Below are positions 10,207 to 37,268 of a stretch of 41,571 nt of DNA, piece after piece (the stretch's first letter is position 1; each line of letters opens with the position of its first letter). Below the pieces are notes generated by a model. That model ran no database searches. It was not told where the DNA came from and was given only the letters and a program-made list of their open reading frames with translations. The position numbers and the translations under genes were made by a program. Source of the stretch: a virus; the IMG/VR virus record IMGVR_UViG_3300033979_000546, positions 1-41,571 of that record. The stretch is one strand, 5' to 3'.

Positions 10207-10478
10207 CAGGACTTCTTGAATCGCTTCTCGACGCCCTCGCGAACGAGCGACGGCTCACGTCCGGATTGGAGAGCACCGGCCATCATAGCGGCCTTGGATA
10301 AGTTTTCACCACTCAACTTGGCGACGTTGGCCTTGCCTTCTTCGCTGCCCGCGACCTGCTCGGTGAGGAACCTGCGGCGGCGTTCGTCCGGGGTTGCATA
10401 CCCGAGACGACGGTCGAGTCCGTCGAGTTCAGAATAAAAGTCTTGGTCGTCGTTCTTCATAAGGAATCCGCCCATCAT
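10206..10478 (-). CDS. Small protein with the FYxxLDxxDR motif
   Basis: This 90-residue protein starts at ATG 10478 (ATGA overlap with the upstream stop; a more upstream ATG at 10493 is possible). It carries DQDFYSELDGLDRRLGY near residues 11-28, the same motif found in the proteins at 23488-24810 and 25424-25978. The remainder is helical and charged (LTEQVAGSEEGKANVAKLSG). It sits between a 337-residue unknown and the decoration pair. The shared motif suggests a common binding partner in the virion or procapsid; no function is known. Confidence 0.65.
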   Translation of the reverse strand: MMGGFLMKNDDQDFYSELDGLDRRLGYATPDERRRRFLTEQVAGSEEGKANVAKLSGENLSKAAMMAGALQSGREPSLVREGVEKRFKKS

Positions 10479-11488
10479 TTCCTCGAGAGCCATGAGGCTC
10501 GGTAGTCTTCGGTCTTCTTCTTGACGCCCTTACCCTTGCCGGTCATTTCCGCAAGCATCACGTCCCGCGGAAACTCCGGCTCGCGGTCCTCGATCGAAGC
10601 GACCGCGGCGGGGCCTTGTTCGGAGTGGCGGCTGACGGACTTGAGGGCGTCGAGGCGAGCCTGACTCACGACGTGCTTCCACGCCTCCTTCAGGGGGTCG
10701 TCCCGTTCGAAAGACCGGTCGAGGTCCTCGAGAGCGTCGTCGTGCAAACGTTCGATCACCGTCTTGTCAACCCCGTAGTGCCCGTCGCTGACGGCGTCGA
10801 GGACGCGGAGGGACCGCTGAAGGGCACCCTCGAGGACGCCGATCCGGGTCAGACCACCGATAGACCGGTCCTGCGTGTGCTTGTCGCGATCGTACATACT
10901 CCACGCGACCGCGTAGGGGTTCTCGACGTCCTTCTTTCCCTTGAGACGCTTGACCACGTTCTCCATGCCGGGAGGGGCCACGTACCGGTTGATCTGGAAG
11001 GACCGGGTGGAGTACGCGACCCGCTCGAGTTCCCGGAACTTAGCCGTGGACGTGGGGTCGACCCTCTGCTGGGTCTTGCCCTGAGCACGCTTGCCGGAAG
11101 CACGACGGCTCTGGGCTTCCTTATCACTCTGGGTGAAGAAGAAGTCGGACACGACGTCGTCGTCGTCCTCACGAGGACTCTCACCGTAAGCGTGCCGATC
11201 CGTGCGGGGCATGGGCCGATTGAGCATCTTGTCGCTGCCCATTTCCTCGAGCGGACCGAGGTCCTGATCAGCGAGGGAGTCGAGCAGGTCGTCGTCGGTC
11301 CCGGCCTTTACCGCCGATCCGAAGGCCTGACCGATGGTCTGGCCTTCCACCGGCTTGTCGACGCCGATCTTCTTTGCGGCCTTGCCCTTGGCCTGCTCCA
11401 CGAGGTGTTCCGCCCACTGGTTGACGGTCTGGCTGACCGACATCGGCTTTCCGCCCTGAACGGGGATCTTGCTTGGCATGTCTGGCAC
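10475..11488 (-). CDS. Head-region protein of unknown function
   Basis: The 337-residue product starts at GTG 11488, preceded by AAGGAG with good spacing, rather than at an internal ATG. The N-terminal part is helical (VSQTVNQWAEHLVEQAKG). Residues 95-110 are acidic (REDDDDVVSDFF). Around 165-190 it has MENVVKRLKGKKDVENPYAVAWSMYD, an NP-x-AVAW motif common in phage head-region proteins. The C-terminal 130 residues are helical and charged. It lies between the MuF block and the decoration genes. It could be an internal head protein; no enzymatic motif is visible. Confidence 0.65.
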   Translation of the reverse strand: MPDMPSKIPVQGGKPMSVSQTVNQWAEHLVEQAKGKAAKKIGVDKPVEGQTIGQAFGSAVKAGTDDDLLDSLADQDLGPLEEMGSDKMLNRPMPRTDRHAYGESPREDDDDVVSDFFFTQSDKEAQSRRASGKRAQGKTQQRVDPTSTAKFRELERVAYSTRSFQINRYVAPPGMENVVKRLKGKKDVENPYAVAWSMYDRDKHTQDRSIGGLTRIGVLEGALQRSLRVLDAVSDGHYGVDKTVIERLHDDALEDLDRSFERDDPLKEAWKHVVSQARLDALKSVSRHSEQGPAAVASIEDREPEFPRDVMLAEMTGKGKGVKKKTEDYRASWLSRK

Positions 11489-30176: not shown

Positions 30177-31011
30177 CCGGGGCCGAGGACCGGACCTTAT
30201 TCACGAGTTCACCCATGAGGGCCCCGCCAAGATCGGCGGGGTCCTTTTCATTTCCACGCCAGAGCACCGGGAACGCCTTCAACCCGACCGACCGCATCTC
30301 AGCCGCCGCCTGCACCGCCTTGTCTTCCGCGTCCGGGTCGAAGAGGACAAACACCCGCTCGGGGCTGAGACTGGACAGGGCGAACAGTTGGGACCGGCTG
30401 ACGGTGGACCCGCACACCGCGACGCTCGAAGGAGTGGCGAGGTGATCGAACACGCCCTCGACCACGAAGACGTCTCCGACCGGCTTGGTAACGTGCACCC
30501 CGTACAGGGGCTTCTCCTCACCGAAGTCTACCGTCTTGGGCTCCTGTGACCCGAGGGCCCTGCCCATCGCCCACGTCAATCGGCGATTCTCCCAATAAGG
30601 GAACCAGACCCGACCGTCGAACGGCTTGACGCTGAGCAGGTACCGGGACACCTGCCCCTCAGTTACTCCCCGACCGGCGAGGTACTTCCGGGCCCTGAGC
30701 GTCGGAGAGCCCGCGGGAGCGATCCCGGACGCGAGGGGATACAGATGGCCCCCGAGGTCGACGGACGCGACGGAAGTACCTTCCCGGGGCTCCCCGAGGC
30801 CGCGGAGGTACTGACGCCACTCCGACCGGCTGACCTCGGCCAGCAGGCTGCCCTTGAGACCACAACGGAAGCACAAGTACAGCAACCGGGTGCGGTGGAG
30901 GTACAAGTGTTCCGCCTTGCCACACTGCGGACAGGCGGTGACGATCTGGTCCCCAGCCAGACGGGCCCTCGAGCGGAGGACCGACTCGAGGACCTCACGC
31001 CTCGAGAACAC
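30085..31011 (-). CDS. DNA primase (DnaG-like)
   Basis: This 308-residue protein has an N-terminal zinc ribbon (C27, C30, C47, C50) and a TOPRIM domain with VFVVEGVFDHLA (Glu185) and FDPDAED (Asp225, Asp227). KDPADLGG at 257-263 is also typical of bacterial-type primases. It lacks a separate helicase-binding domain. It lies directly after the helicase and overlaps it by 17 bases. The C-terminal 30 residues, encoded opposite the sigma-like gene, are Arg/Pro-rich and probably not a conserved part. Confidence 0.85.
   Translation of the reverse strand: MFSRREVLESVLRSRARLAGDQIVTACPQCGKAEHLYLHRTRLLYLCFRCGLKGSLLAEVSRSEWRQYLRGLGEPREGTSVASVDLGGHLYPLASGIAPAGSPTLRARKYLAGRGVTEGQVSRYLLSVKPFDGRVWFPYWENRRLTWAMGRALGSQEPKTVDFGEEKPLYGVHVTKPVGDVFVVEGVFDHLATPSSVAVCGSTVSRSQLFALSSLSPERVFVLFDPDAEDKAVQAAAEMRSVGLKAFPVLWRGNEKDPADLGGALMGELVNKVRSSAPVRPQAVRLHVGPRARPGSCSLPATGPREPA
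30219..30253 (+). terminator. Plus-strand terminator inside the primase gene
   Basis: GGGCCCCGCC (30219-30228) pairs with GGCGGGGTCC (30235-30244) around a six-base loop (one G-U pair), followed by TTTTCATTT. It lies 43 bases after the sigma-like gene stop, so it probably ends the plus-strand operon. The same bases encode DPADLGG of the primase on the minus strand. Confidence 0.7.
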
Positions 31012-32230
31012 GCTGTACCTCGAAGTTGGCGATCAGGGGAACGTTGGCGCCCTTCTCGGCGTCGCGGACCTTGGCCGTGGTCATGACCATCCGCCCGGTC
31101 CGGACTTCGTCCTTCCTCTGACCGACCCCGAGCACCAGATCCGCACCCTCGACCTTGCCCATGCTCTCGGCGACGTGCTCGAGGTCCACGACTTCCTCAC
31201 CGGCCCGGCTACGCTGCACCTGACTCGCCGTCCAGTGCACCACGTCGAGGTCCATCGCCATCGCCTTGCAGTCTTCCGCGATCGACCGCCATTCGTGCCT
31301 CGGTTCCCGGTTCGCCGTCGACGCCCGGAACCGGTCCGCGTAGTCCGTGACCACGAGGTCGACCGGCCTGCCCGAACGCGACTGGTGGGCCCGGACGAAG
31401 TTCCAAGCGTCCCGTACGGTGGACTGGCGGACGAGCAGTCCCTTGATGCTCGCGTTCCCGCCCTTCTTGAGGAACCGGTCCCTGAGCCTGATCGCCTTGT
31501 CTTGATCCTGTACCAACTGCTCGACGGTCATGCCGGTGATGCACTGCAAGAACCGTCGTCGGATCTTGCGCTCGCCGTCCTCGAACGTGAAATACACCAC
31601 GTTGAGACCCGCAGCCATGGCCGCGACGGCGACGTTCACCAGCAGCGTGGTCTTGCCGACGTTGATGAAGGACAGGATCGCACACAGGTCGCCCTTCTCC
31701 GGACCGCCGCGCAGCAGGTCGTTGATGAACGGCCACGGCGTGACCACGGTCGGCCTCCGCAGGTCCTCGGCACCGATGTCACCGTTCAACGTCAGGAACG
31801 ACTCGCCAATGGAAGAGCCGATCCGGCTGGCCTGAACGATCCGCTCGGCGAGTTCCTCGGGATTGAGGCCGTCGGCGTCCTCGAAGGCCGCATCGATGGC
31901 CCGCCACTGGGAGAACCCGGCGATGCGGTCCCGGACGTACCCGACGTCCCTGACCGGCGAGAACGCCCTCACCCGCTCCTGAGCCTCGTAGGCCGATCGA
32001 TGCCCGCTCTCGGCGACGGACTCCTCGAGAACCGGCAGGCTCGGCACCCGGTTGTACCGGTCGAACAGGGAGAGCAATTGGTCGGCGATCAGCCGGTTGA
32101 CCGGGTCGGCAAAGGTAGACCCGGAAACCACGACCCGGACCTGCGGGAGCAGATCCGGGTCGGTGGCTAGGGCACTGAGGATCAGGGGCTCGAGCGATGG
32201 AGGGCAGTCAGCCCGTCGAACCAAATCCAT
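30995..32230 (-). CDS. Replicative DNA helicase (DnaB-like)
   Basis: The 411-residue protein, from ATG 32230, matches the RecA-like core of DnaB helicases: Walker A SFINVGKTT near residue 187, VVYFTFEDGE near 211, Walker B LVVTDYADRF near 290, and DVVHWTASQVQRSRAG near 330. The Walker A motif is shortened compared with the typical A.P..GKT form. The N-terminal 150 residues are helical. It should unwind DNA at the fork with the primase coded after it. It overlaps dUTPase by 26 bases. Confidence 0.85.
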   Translation of the reverse strand: MDLVRRADCPPSLEPLILSALATDPDLLPQVRVVVSGSTFADPVNRLIADQLLSLFDRYNRVPSLPVLEESVAESGHRSAYEAQERVRAFSPVRDVGYVRDRIAGFSQWRAIDAAFEDADGLNPEELAERIVQASRIGSSIGESFLTLNGDIGAEDLRRPTVVTPWPFINDLLRGGPEKGDLCAILSFINVGKTTLLVNVAVAAMAAGLNVVYFTFEDGERKIRRRFLQCITGMTVEQLVQDQDKAIRLRDRFLKKGGNASIKGLLVRQSTVRDAWNFVRAHQSRSGRPVDLVVTDYADRFRASTANREPRHEWRSIAEDCKAMAMDLDVVHWTASQVQRSRAGEEVVDLEHVAESMGKVEGADLVLGVGQRKDEVRTGRMVMTTAKVRDAEKGANVPLIANFEVQRVLEA

Positions 32231-32633
32231 TGGAACCTCGCTGGGTCTCGGGGAGTGCGCCCACCACGGTCGCGTTGACCTTGGCGTACGGGAGCACCAG
32301 CAGTTGGGCGATCCGCTCGCCGGTCTCCACCCTGACCTCCCGGGCACCGCCAACGCCCGGATTGAACGCGATCACGTAGATCGGTCCGACGTACCCTTCG
32401 TCGATGATCGAAGTCGGGACGATCAGACCCTTCTTGGCGAAGGTGGAGGATCGACCCGTGATCATACCGAAGTGACCGGCGGGAATCTTCACCCTGATTC
32501 CGCTCGGGATCGACGTGAAAGTCTGGACGCCGATCGACACCGTACCGCCGACGTTCATCAGGTCGATACCGGCGTCCCCGTCGCGGGCGGGAGACAGGGG
32601 AACCGGCAGGAGTGTGTCGACGATGACTTGCAT
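32208..32633 (-). CDS. dut: dUTPase (trimeric dUTP nucleotidohydrolase)
   Basis: All five trimeric dUTPase motifs are visible in the 141-residue product: I, DAGIDL at residues 20-25; II, GRSS at 60-63; III, GLIVPTSIIDEGYVGPI at 69-85 with Asp78 and Tyr81; IV, RIAQLL at 107-112; V, RGSNGFGSTG at 132-141. It converts dUTP to dUMP and keeps uracil out of phage DNA. I use ATG 32633, three bases after the kinase stop; an in-frame GTG at 32648 would add five residues. Its place in the PurZ operon ties it to nucleotide pool control. Confidence 0.93.
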   Translation of the reverse strand: MQVIVDTLLPVPLSPARDGDAGIDLMNVGGTVSIGVQTFTSIPSGIRVKIPAGHFGMITGRSSTFAKKGLIVPTSIIDEGYVGPIYVIAFNPGVGGAREVRVETGERIAQLLVLPYAKVNATVVGALPETQRGSNGFGSTG

Positions 32634-32635
32634 GG

Positions 32636-33109
32636 TCAGGGCTTCCACGGGATCTTCACCTCCTCAATGCGAACCCCGCAGTGCTCGGCGACGTCAAGGA
32701 CGTCCTCCACGTCGTGCACGCTGTATTCGTGCCGGTTGAACTCTACCGACCCGTGCTGGTAAACCGCAGGGATGGGACGCCCGACCTTCATCACGGTCAC
32801 GCCGTGTACCGAGGCCTTCGGGAAGAACCACTCGGCCTGCTGGCGATCCCGCGGGAACCCGTCGAGAACGAGGGGCCGGTTGAGTTCGCAGGCGACCGAG
32901 AGCAAGTCGAGGACGTAGTTCCTCACCAGATCCTCGGTCAGGTCCCACCGGTTCGGGTTCTTCTGGGTTACCGCCGGGAACATGCCCACCGACTCGCGGA
33001 TCATGCGGCCCGGTCGACCGACGATCCAGAGCGGTTGGGGGAAACAGTTGTCCACCGCGTACGTCTTGCCCGACGAGGTGGTACCGATCACACAGACGAT
33101 CATAGCCAT
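32636..33109 (-). CDS. Adenylate-kinase-like nucleoside monophosphate kinase
   Basis: This 157-residue protein has a P-loop (GTTSSGKT near residue 9) and the adenylate-kinase signature LVLDGFPRDRQQAEWFF near residue 80. It is shorter than bacterial adenylate kinase and seems to lack the usual LID insertion. GGAGG lies seven bases before ATG 33109. It overlaps the end of PurZ by 10 bases. In Z-genome phages the new dZMP must be phosphorylated, so this kinase is a candidate for that step; it could equally act on another monophosphate. Confidence 0.75.
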   Translation of the reverse strand: MAMIVCVIGTTSSGKTYAVDNCFPQPLWIVGRPGRMIRESVGMFPAVTQKNPNRWDLTEDLVRNYVLDLLSVACELNRPLVLDGFPRDRQQAEWFFPKASVHGVTVMKVGRPIPAVYQHGSVEFNRHEYSVHDVEDVLDVAEHCGVRIEEVKIPWKP

Positions 33110-34116
33110 TCCGTATCCTCCGACTTGGGACCGTAGGAAACGCCCATGACGGGGGCGTCACTGATTGAGTTGAGGGTGTCGATGAACTCGCCGAGTTTGT
33201 TGCCGGGAAGGTAATCGCCGAAGGTCACGAAGAGCCGAGTCGGCCTGCACGTCCGCTCGAACTTCGTGAACTGGGCCTTCGAGAAGGAGAACACCCGGCG
33301 GACCCGCTTGGTCACGGTGGTGGTCTCCATGACTTCCTTACCGGCGATCGCAGAGACGTCCGACCACGCGAGTTCCTGCTGGTCGTCGTAGAACGGACCG
33401 GAAGAGAACTCGCCTACGTCACCGACCCGGATCGGGAACGTCCGGACCACTCCGATCACCTCGCGGCAGTCGAAGGGACTGAGACCGGCGTTGTCGAGCA
33501 TGCGGTTCGGAGTGACGTCCCGACTGGTCACGTGCGGGTACTGGTGCCCGTGGTTGAGGCTAAGATCGAATCCCTGAGAACCCTCGAGCATGATCGGGGC
33601 GCGACTGGCGATCATCTGGTTGTAGACCGCCGTCTTCATCACCATCATCCGCGAGTGAGTTGGCTTCACGTCCTTGGCGAAGGTGCCGAGACCCAACCGC
33701 TCCACCTTGCGGATCTGAGCGTTGCCGCCGCCCTGACCGGTCGACGCGATGCGGTTGACGAGATGGTCCTCCTTCATCATGTCGGCCTGTTGGACGGTGG
33801 ACGCCAGAGGGTCGACGTAAAGGACGCCCCCGAGCGGAGCGAGCCAGTTCCATTCGGTGACGAGGGCGGTCTCATAGAACGCCGCATGGGGCCCGAGCAC
33901 CCCGGTACGACCGAGGGCACAGGCGATCGGGAGGGCCTTGAGCACTCGCTTCTCGCCGTTCAGGTCGTAGACCGTATGACCGGCGTTCGGCATGTTGTCC
34001 GAGACGCCGACCTGAATCTCGGGGAACTTCTGGTAAAGGGCACCCTCTACCTTGCCCTTGCCGCACGAACCCCACTGGCTGTCGATGACGCAAATGGCAC
34101 CGGGTCCGATCTTCAC
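33100..34116 (-). CDS. purZ: PurZ, N6-succino-2-amino-2'-deoxyadenylate synthase
   Basis: The 338-residue protein is a PurA (adenylosuccinate synthetase) relative of phage PurZ type. The N-terminal loop reads DSQWGSCGKGKVEG: where PurA has the catalytic Asp of WGDEGKG, this has Ser17, the known PurZ change that admits dGMP. DNMPNAGHT (residues 40-48, His47), STGQG near 125, EGSQGFDLSLN at 178, TSRDVTPNRML at 197 and TTTVTKRVRRVFSFS at 265 match phage PurZ rather than bacterial PurA. It joins aspartate to dGMP using a nucleoside triphosphate; host PurB then yields dZMP. The start GTG 34116 overlaps the preceding stop. Length is below PurA (about 430). Confidence 0.93.
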   Translation of the reverse strand: MKIGPGAICVIDSQWGSCGKGKVEGALYQKFPEIQVGVSDNMPNAGHTVYDLNGEKRVLKALPIACALGRTGVLGPHAAFYETALVTEWNWLAPLGGVLYVDPLASTVQQADMMKEDHLVNRIASTGQGGGNAQIRKVERLGLGTFAKDVKPTHSRMMVMKTAVYNQMIASRAPIMLEGSQGFDLSLNHGHQYPHVTSRDVTPNRMLDNAGLSPFDCREVIGVVRTFPIRVGDVGEFSSGPFYDDQQELAWSDVSAIAGKEVMETTTVTKRVRRVFSFSKAQFTKFERTCRPTRLFVTFGDYLPGNKLGEFIDTLNSISDAPVMGVSYGPKSEDTEWL

Positions 34117-34868: not shown

Positions 34869-35107
34869 GAGAGTTGCTCCTTCAGTGCTGCAACCAGTTC
34901 GAACGTGGTCTCGTGGACACGCGCCACGAGCCGGTCCCTGACTTCGTCGTGAGTCTCGCCCTGCCGTACTTCGTCGCCCTCGCCATACTCGACGCGGACC
35001 GACTCGTACCCGGGCATGCTCACGGTTCTCGCCATGGACACGTACACCCGTCTCGCTCCGACCGACGAGTCGGAAGATTGCCCAACCGTCGCCCGCTTAC
35101 TTGACAT
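34865..35107 (-). CDS. Small protein, unknown
   Basis: This 80-residue protein (MSSKRATVGQSSDSSVGARR) has a Ser-rich N-terminus and a helical end (DEVRDRLVARVHETTFELVA). AAGGAG precedes the ATG, which lies inside the polymerase end (11-base overlap); its stop overlaps the SSB-like start. It may be a replication accessory factor. No motif was recognised. Confidence 0.65.
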   Translation of the reverse strand: MSSKRATVGQSSDSSVGARRVYVSMARTVSMPGYESVRVEYGEGDEVRQGETHDEVRDRLVARVHETTFELVAALKEQLS

Positions 35108-37268
35108 CCTGCATCTCCTTGAGGTTGCGACCGACCTTCAGGTCGACCTTGAACGGGACCCCACGAGGTTCCCAATAATGCATTGCGTTGTGGATCAACA
35201 TGCACTCCTTCAACGTCTCGACGCCTTCTTCGAGCCACTCGTTCGACACGTCAATGACGATGGAATCGTGAATCTGCATGATGACGTCGCCCCGCAGAAA
35301 CAGCCGCTCCTGCAACATGCAGAGGCTGAGCATCGTCAACTTAGCCGCGGTGGACTGGATCGGGGAATTACCCGCCTGACGGTAAGCACGCTGCCGAATC
35401 TGTTCGTCGTTGTTCCAGACGTCCGGCAGGTGCCGACGCGACCCGAACAGGTCCCGCACGTACCCGTTGCGGACCGCGAAGGCGACCTGTTCCTGCTTCC
35501 ACCGGGCGACGCCCGGGAAGGACACGTCGTACCGCTTGAGCAGGGCCCGGGCGTCCGGCAGCGTGAGGCCGGTCTTCTGGGCGAGGCCATATTCGGTCTG
35601 CCCGTAGATGATCCCTAAGTTCATCCGCTTGCCGACGTCCCGCTGCCGATCGTCCACGTCCTCGAAGCGGACGCTGAAGATTTCGCTGGCCGCGAACCGA
35701 TGGAGGTCGAGCCCGTCATTGAGGGCTGACTTCATCTTCTCGTCACCGCTGATCCCGGCAACTAGTCTGGGCTCCTGCTGAGCGTAGTCACCGGCGACCA
35801 ACCAACCGCCCGACCTGCTCACGAAGACCGACTTGACGATCGAGTTCTTGGGCACGTTCTGGAAGTTAGGCTCAGTGCTCGAGAGCCTGCCGGTCATGGT
35901 CACGGCCTGCGAGAACTGGCCGTGCATCAGACCCTTCGGACTGACGTACTGACTCCACTTGTCGATGAAACCCGACACCATCGCGGACTTCGACCGCCAA
36001 CCGGCGAGGGCCCGGAGCACCGGGTGCTTGCCTTCCAACTTCTCGAGAACCCGCTTGTCGAGACTGGGCGACCCGCTCTTGGTCCTGCCCTTCACCTTCT
36101 CCTTGAGGACCTTGAACACGAGGTGCTGCATCATCGGGTTGCTGTTCGGGTTGAACTCGCGACCGAAGTGATCGCTGACGGCCACCACCTCAGGACTCTC
36201 GAACACCTCGCGGCGTGCCGACTCCACGTCCTTCACCAACTGCTCCCTCACCTCGGCCAGACGGTCGCGGTCGAACGCGATCCCGGTGGTCTCGAGCCGG
36301 GCCAAGCCGAGGCTAAATTCGTTCTCCATCGACCAGACGCCCCGCTGCTCGTCGTCCATCCGCTCGCACATCTTCGCCTTGAGGTCGAGGGTGGCGAGGG
36401 CGTCGAGACCGTTGTACCGGAGCAGGTCGGTGATCTTGGCCTCGATCGGGTTCTCCCCGACGCCGTCGGACTTGTGTCCCCACCGGATGCCAAACCGCTT
36501 CATGCAAGCGGAGAGCGAGTGACCGGCGGCCTCCTCGAGGACGTAAGAGGCGAGCATCGTGTCCTCCGCGGGCCATGTCTTACCGAACTTGCGGTAGTTA
36601 ACCTTGTGCTCGTACTTCACGTTGTGGGCACAAGAAGGACACGACGCGAGGACCGAGGACCAGACGGCCAGCACCGCCTCAGAGTCGATCTTCACTTGCG
36701 GGTGTTCCACCGGGAACGAGATCGCAACCGGGCCGAGTTCAGCGTCGTCGAACGCGAGGCCGATCGAGAGGATCCGGAACTCGGCATTGAGTTCCGGCCT
36801 GATGGCGTTCACATCGCCCCACGTCTCATAGTCGTAGGCGATCGGGCGCGGAGTTTCAACGAATTCTTGCAGGACGGTCAGGATCTGCTCGGTGTCGAGC
36901 AACATCACGACGTCCGGGACCTCGACCTCGTCACCCTTGGCCAGTTCGAGAGCGAACTCCCAAACGTCACACCAAGACTCCACGGTACGCTCGGCCTCGC
37001 CGCCCTTCTCGCGACTGGCTTCTACCACCTTCAGCGGGTGGTGTTGCACGACCACGTTGGTGCCGTCCTCGAGCGTGAAACGCTCGCCCACGTCCTTCCG
37101 CATGTTGACGGACCTGCCCAGCACCTTTTCAGCGGCCTTCTTGCCGAGGGCCACCACCAGACCGGACACCGGCGACCCCACCGCCGCCAGTTCAAACTCC
37201 TTCGGTATGATGCCCCGGTGCTCAGTCGGTTCCGTCACGTCTACCGCGAACAAGGGAATCGAAGACAT
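35097..37268 (-). CDS. Family A DNA polymerase with 3'-5' exonuclease (candidate DpoZ)
   Basis: The 723-residue protein has three parts. Residues 1-110 resemble the C-terminal part of a family 4 uracil-DNA glycosylase (VVALGKKAAEKVLG; VVVQHHPLK). Residues 140-300 are a 3'-5' exonuclease with YDYETW (Asp146, Glu148), AHNVKYEH (Glu220 where Asp is usual) and YNGLD (Asp289). Residues 440-723 are the polymerase: TGRLSSTEPNFQNVP, motif A GDYAQQEPR (Asp494, Glu499), motif B GKRMNLGIIYG (Lys547, Leu551, Tyr555), motif C QIHDSIVID (Asp668). Leu551 is the E. coli 762 position. In PurZ phages such a polymerase is often DpoZ, which prefers dZTP over dATP; this is inferred from the operon. Confidence 0.93.
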   Translation of the reverse strand: MSSIPLFAVDVTEPTEHRGIIPKEFELAAVGSPVSGLVVALGKKAAEKVLGRSVNMRKDVGERFTLEDGTNVVVQHHPLKVVEASREKGGEAERTVESWCDVWEFALELAKGDEVEVPDVVMLLDTEQILTVLQEFVETPRPIAYDYETWGDVNAIRPELNAEFRILSIGLAFDDAELGPVAISFPVEHPQVKIDSEAVLAVWSSVLASCPSCAHNVKYEHKVNYRKFGKTWPAEDTMLASYVLEEAAGHSLSACMKRFGIRWGHKSDGVGENPIEAKITDLLRYNGLDALATLDLKAKMCERMDDEQRGVWSMENEFSLGLARLETTGIAFDRDRLAEVREQLVKDVESARREVFESPEVVAVSDHFGREFNPNSNPMMQHLVFKVLKEKVKGRTKSGSPSLDKRVLEKLEGKHPVLRALAGWRSKSAMVSGFIDKWSQYVSPKGLMHGQFSQAVTMTGRLSSTEPNFQNVPKNSIVKSVFVSRSGGWLVAGDYAQQEPRLVAGISGDEKMKSALNDGLDLHRFAASEIFSVRFEDVDDRQRDVGKRMNLGIIYGQTEYGLAQKTGLTLPDARALLKRYDVSFPGVARWKQEQVAFAVRNGYVRDLFGSRRHLPDVWNNDEQIRQRAYRQAGNSPIQSTAAKLTMLSLCMLQERLFLRGDVIMQIHDSIVIDVSNEWLEEGVETLKECMLIHNAMHYWEPRGVPFKVDLKVGRNLKEMQDVK

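Follow-up and report, generated by a model that had tools for sequence, protein, structure and literature searches.

Phage-encoded kinases are known to serve the synthesis of DNA with modified bases. The dNMP kinase gp1 of T4 is one of these enzymes, and the modified base of T4 is a pyrimidine. The accessory proteins of the Z phages that are known as DatZ, MazZ, DutZ, DmtZ, and DUF5664 are hydrolases or a transferase, and none of them phosphorylates dZMP (PMC8342488, PMC12884076). In the report on the S-2L triad, the enzymes required for the conversion of dSMP to dZMP and for the formation of dZTP were not found on phage genomes (PMC8342488), and a 2026 NAR paper, in which the word "kinase" is absent, gives these same steps to host enzymes (PMC12884076). 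We found no report of a phage kinase for dZMP in the open-licence literature; such a report may exist elsewhere.

Here we describe a gene for an adenylate kinase-like NMP kinase of 157 aa, a candidate dZMP kinase, that is located at positions 32636–33109 on the minus strand of a viral DNA of 41,571 nucleotides (IMG/VR record IMGVR_UViG_3300033979_000546), the whole of which is called the window below. The assignment is based on a profile match, an AF2 model, and a structure match. The ORF starts with ATG and shares 10 bases with the 3′-end of the gene for PurZ (33100–34116, minus strand), and the shared bases take in the PurZ stop codon. The first-pass annotation had described this overlap, together with the motifs GTTSSGKT (residues 9–16) and DGFPRDRQQAEW (residues 83–94) and a missing LID insertion. 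Both motifs are present, and the absence of the LID was borne out by the AF2 model and by the alignment to the E. coli ADK.

The window PurZ, a succino-amino-deoxyadenylate synthase of 338 aa, was assigned with the NCBIfam PurZ model at E = 8e-57, which is under the cut-off of that model. Judged from the sequence directly, Ser17 (GSCGKGK; codon at 34066–34068, minus strand) replaces the catalytic Asp13 of PurA, and Ser at this position is the mark by which PurZ enzymes are recognized. In a quick ML tree with long branches and unsure deep placements, the window PurZ and a marine clade form a supported group (SH-aLRT 99), and the sister of this group (SH-aLRT 97) is the DatZ-type PurZ of S-2L, phiVC8, and SH-Ab 15497. 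A tblastn search detected no homologues of DatZ or MazZ, either in the window or in the kinase-bearing loci. On the other side of the kinase, a Dut-like gene of 146 aa (32208–32648, minus strand) starts at or inside the end of the kinase ORF, according to the start codon that is chosen. By homology it may encode a DutZ-type dNTP pyrophosphatase, and its product is 39–40% identical to the Dut-like proteins of the Z phages Sapo, Goodman, and Wayne. The cassette is followed by a DnaB-like helicase (30995–32230, minus strand), an order that is kept in close relatives, and a Family A DNA polymerase (35097–37268, minus strand) belongs to the same gene cluster.

By its structural model, the window kinase belongs to the adenylate kinase fold, as a divergent member without a LID. 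Comparison of profile A4 (seven sequences) with the PDB returned adenylate kinases at E = 7e-10. The AF2 model had a pLDDT of 88.5 and a pTM of 0.84, and the solved structures nearest to it were adenylate kinases (Z 15.2, rmsd 3.1, 148 residues). Adenylate kinases were likewise the structural match for a marine homologue of 184 aa (Z 15.1), and the window and marine clades were joined by profile–profile comparison (hhalign probability of 99%). A Pfam search with the single sequence gave AAA_33 at E = 0.004 and ADK at E = 0.06, and because single-sequence searches hardly detect this ORF, it is likely to go unannotated. The window kinase also misses the cut-offs for the adenylate kinase models PF00406 (13.9 vs 26.8 bits) and TIGR01351 (15.7 vs 168). 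No match to the thymidylate kinase family PF02223 was found in the window record, and the match of the window kinase to the PHROG thymidylate kinase (E = 0.005) covers the P-loop stretch only and falls short of family membership.

The P-loop (33062–33085, minus strand) conforms to the pattern GxxxxGK[ST], and G9, S13, G14, and K15 are invariant in the 17 PurZ-linked kinases. In the alignment, PGRMIR (residues 33–38; 32996–33013, minus strand) corresponds to T31–R36 of the E. coli ADK, with G34 and R38 invariant. The segment DGFPRDRQQ (residues 83–91; 32837–32863, minus strand) corresponds to D84, G85, P87, R88, and Q92, and its D, G, P, R, and Q are invariant in 19 of 19 aligned kinases. The last of these segments, RHEYS (residues 126–130; 32720–32734, minus strand), aligns R126 with R167. 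Arg36, Arg88, Gln92, and the catalytic Arg167 of the E. coli enzyme are all retained, as R38, R87, Q91, and R126, and the first three of these window residues are invariant across the 19 kinases. The equivalents of Arg119, Arg123, and Arg156 are lost in the window clade, and at these positions the window protein has gaps or other residues in the alignment to the E. coli ADK; two of these three, at the LID hinge, are retained by the marine clade. With the LID and these three arginines lost, catalysis in the window clade may be slow or absent. The motif N53-x-W55 (32945–32953, minus strand) aligns to the NMP-binding region; it is common to the window clade (W or F) and to the marine PurZ-linked kinases, is absent from the E. 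coli ADK, and is a candidate base-reading element. A single residue for Z-specificity at the position of Thr31 of ADK was sought by alignment across the family and was not found; since this position varies (P, V, T, I, S, A), no single Z-specific signature could be recognized.

We propose that the window encodes a minimal phage (d)NMP kinase of the ADK fold that is dedicated to the conversion of dZMP to dZDP, and we place the probability of this reading at about two in three. The catalytic activity, the substrate, and the base selectivity that we infer for the window kinase are as follows. The product of PurZ and adenylosuccinate lyase, dZMP, would be converted to dZDP with ATP or another NTP bound at the P-loop and with the phosphates held by the conserved Arg38, Arg87, and Arg126. 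The N1/6-amino edge, which is common to Z and A, would be read by Gln91 and the carbonyl of Gly84. Gln92 and Gly85 of ADK read a base edge that A and Z have in common, so the ADK fold is pre-adapted to Z. Selection against dAMP would require contacts around C2, for which the region of N53-x-W55 is the best candidate, and such discrimination would benefit the phage. The last step would be completed by the host NDK. If the Dut-like neighbour acts as DutZ does, it would clear dATP and convert dGTP back into dGMP, the substrate of PurZ. The link to Dut is also compatible with a role in pyrimidine metabolism, and this counts against the dZMP reading.

A scan of IMG/VR with a PurZ profile gave 24 loci, of which 21 were counted after the exclusion of L009, L019, and L024 (contig ends at or right after PurZ). 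An ADK-like ORF is found directly downstream of PurZ in 18 of these 21 loci with downstream sequence, and the 18 include PurZ lineages that are only 37–47% identical to the window PurZ. The ADK gene of L023 and L026 is elsewhere in the record, and no ADK gene was found in L025, a fragment of 9 kb. Four pairs among the 18 are near-duplicates (L005/L006, L007/L008, L011/L012, and L021/L022), and the number of independent phages is therefore nearer to 14. Scans of IMG/VR that started from the kinase and did not require PurZ gave 6 and 11 loci, with PurZ upstream in all. These loci were mostly already known via PurZ, with one new contig (L030) that is approximately a duplicate of L014, so the kinase-first scans speak to the absence of PurZ-free relatives and are not 17 independent confirmations. 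The first hit by tblastn (L001; 37%, 58 residues) was discarded as a deoxynucleoside kinase-like gene of a 204-kb phage. Searches with tblastn and conserved-peptide patterns, covering 50,697 records of named phages and 84,980 genomes of prokaryotes, found no relatives of the kinase. An equal abundance of the kinase in phages without PurZ was the case that the first-pass annotation had named as fatal to its own idea of a dZMP kinase. All recognizable relatives in IMG/VR adjoin PurZ, so the idea was not refuted; the linkage strengthens it, and we regard it as partly supported.

The values of dN/dS between kinase homologues are 0.06–0.39, and the kinase is under purifying selection. These values, and homologues that occupy the corresponding position in other phages, argue that the ORF is not a product of chance. 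The distance matrices of PurZ and the kinase are correlated with r = 0.89 (0 of 2000 permutations as high), and for the marine clade alone with r = 0.79 (1 of 2000 permutations), which is consistent with co-inheritance, although neighbouring genes of one genome are expected to correlate anyway. The kinase diverges faster than PurZ (about 50–54% vs 74–78% identity).

Whole records of 14 named Z phages were searched with the kinase profile and PF00406, and an ADK-type kinase was not found in 13 of them (S-2L, phiVC8, SH-Ab 15497, Bm1, Wayne, Goodman, Hiyaa, Sapo, OH, BUCT555, PMBT28, ZP6, and Olihed). The slot after PurZ in these phages holds MazZ, DatZ, DUF5664, Dut, or hypothetical genes. For Wayne, Goodman, Sapo, Olihed, and Hiyaa, the gene that comes directly after PurZ0 was considered as a divergent kinase and rejected; these genes have no P-loop and resemble DUF5664 or other non-kinase proteins. 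The 13 phages without an ADK match indicate that the host can provide the dZMP step, and the kinase is an accessory rather than an essential or general part of the Z pathway. The ADK family is very rare in phages outside the PurZ phages, and ADK genes of any type were found in 13–19 of 50,697 phage records, varying with the query. The clearer cases are pT24, two phages of 635 kb, and BpsS-140, a PurZ phage in which dut comes after adk. Many of the ADK-bearing "phage" records are short or unannotated contigs with a gene that is 44–100% identical to the E. coli ADK (e.g., OR845188.1 and OQ572403.1), and these are probably host contigs.

This rarity bears on the best of the other explanations, namely a broad-range dNMP kinase that, like T4 gp1, lifts all of the dNDP pools, with dZMP as one of several substrates. 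Broad-range phage kinases are known, as with gene 1 of T4, and the window gene is found within a replication cluster with polymerase, helicase, primase, and Dut. However, a general-purpose helper is not expected to be so rare outside the PurZ phages, and the invariant Gln91 argues for a 6-aminopurine. We consider this explanation unlikely.

The coupling of a kinase to PurZ recurs in different architectures, yet it is not universal. Just after PurZ, L021 (11094–12095) and L022 encode a protein of 334 aa in which an ADK-like kinase is joined to a Dut domain of the trimeric type. A wider scan for PurZ added 79 ORFs, each of which has Ser where PurA has Asp13, a count that is partly built in because one of the two patterns in the scan required a GSEGKG-like motif; it is from this Ser substitution that these more distant synthases are assumed to make Z. 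The gene that directly follows PurZ in L079 (11089–12105) encodes an ADK/AAA_17-like kinase joined to an all-alpha dUTPase_2 domain. Seven IMG/VR loci (L087, L088, L095, L098, L102, L105, and L110) have ORFs of 528–563 aa in which a PurZ-like synthase, with Ser at the Asp13 position, bears an N-terminal P-loop kinase domain of the AAA_18 type. No ADK-like family member was found in the locus DNA examined for the remaining loci of the wider scan. A second related kinase ORF is located just upstream of the fusion in L105 (8833–9414), and a thymidylate kinase-like P-loop ORF is located just upstream of the PurZ-like gene in L091 and L092 (9399–9968).

Since the kinase is beside, or fused to, dUTPase-like domains in several lineages, and no member of the thymidylate kinase family was found elsewhere in these genomes, the enzyme could be a dTMP/dUMP kinase that cooperates with the neighbouring dUTPase toward the supply of dTTP. 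This appears improbable, because the marine clade is linked to PurZ though no Dut match was found in its loci, and because the ADK-type Gln is kept at a position where UMP/CMP kinases have Asn. The Dut link need not indicate pyrimidines, since the hydrolytic activity of the Dut-like proteins from Z phages extends to dATP and dGTP besides dUTP (PMC12884076). We give slightly less credence to an ordinary AMP/dAMP kinase that balances the adenylate energy charge or recycles the dAMP from dATP hydrolysis. Adenylate kinases are indeed the closest fold and profile matches, but the host ADK is already abundant, the restriction to PurZ phages would be left unexplained, and the re-phosphorylation of dAMP would reverse the removal of dATP in which Z phages invest (PMC12884076, PMC8065100). 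The least credible explanation is an ADK-fold protein of weak or no catalytic activity whose role is to bind or regulate PurZ or Dut, e.g., for product channelling, since Lys15 of the P-loop, Arg38, Arg87, Gln91, and Arg126 are retained, the marine clade has two LID-hinge arginines, and the kinase is under purifying selection, even though the window clade has lost the LID arginines, the kinase diverges faster than PurZ, and other lineages have kinase domains fused to PurZ or Dut.

For the preferred assignment as a dZMP kinase, the genes for a lyase are also of interest. A PurB-superfamily lyase is found in three large records of 126–136 kb that bear both the kinase and PurZ (L076, 1441–2892; L077, 1396–2796; and L078). 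Two of the three were checked with NCBIfam, and both are above the TIGR00928 cut-off for adenylosuccinate lyase. NDK was found in none of the 12 records searched. The presence of PurZ, the kinase, and PurB in one record predicts a phage-encoded route from dGMP to dZDP. In Streptomyces phage Hiyaa (L047, PurZ0-type), a PurB-like adenylosuccinate lyase is annotated at 10474–10798. The odds seem to us even that a P-loop NMP kinase was acquired independently by several lineages of Z phages to serve as a dedicated dZMP kinase, in the form of a stand-alone ADK-like protein, an ADK–Dut fusion, a kinase–dUTPase_2 fusion, or an AAA_18–PurZ fusion, and that some of these lineages, with PurB, carry for themselves the conversion of dGMP to dZDP. 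If this is true, then Z synthesis in the PurB-bearing phages would for the most part not depend on the host.

A phage enzyme for dZMP would close the gap between dSMP and dZTP that published work has left to the host. It would also help to account for the competition of Z phages with host nucleotide pools and would be a practical enzyme for the production of dZTP in vitro or in engineered cells. Proteins from the recurrent couplings form a concrete panel for assay. As with the short-LID members of the adenylate kinase family (PF00406/TIGR01351), the window kinase has the P-loop NMP kinase fold, the Arg and Gln of the NMP site, and the DGFPR motif; unlike them, it is without the LID and the LID arginines, is under the Pfam and NCBIfam cut-offs, and is found in a phage operon with PurZ. 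It resembles T4 gp1 as a proposed phage-encoded kinase for a modified dNMP but differs in having no detectable family membership beyond the P-loop. Bacillus phage vB_BpsS-140 also has an ADK-type kinase in a PurZ phage (annotated adk, AZS49251.1), for which no link to Z synthesis was found in the open-licence literature; in contrast to the window kinase, this adk has a canonical RGRxDD short LID and is about 10 kb from PurZ. With DatZ, MazZ, DutZ, DmtZ, and DUF5664 of the Z phages, the window kinase has in common that it is a putative accessory nucleotide-pool enzyme encoded in the slot beside PurZ.
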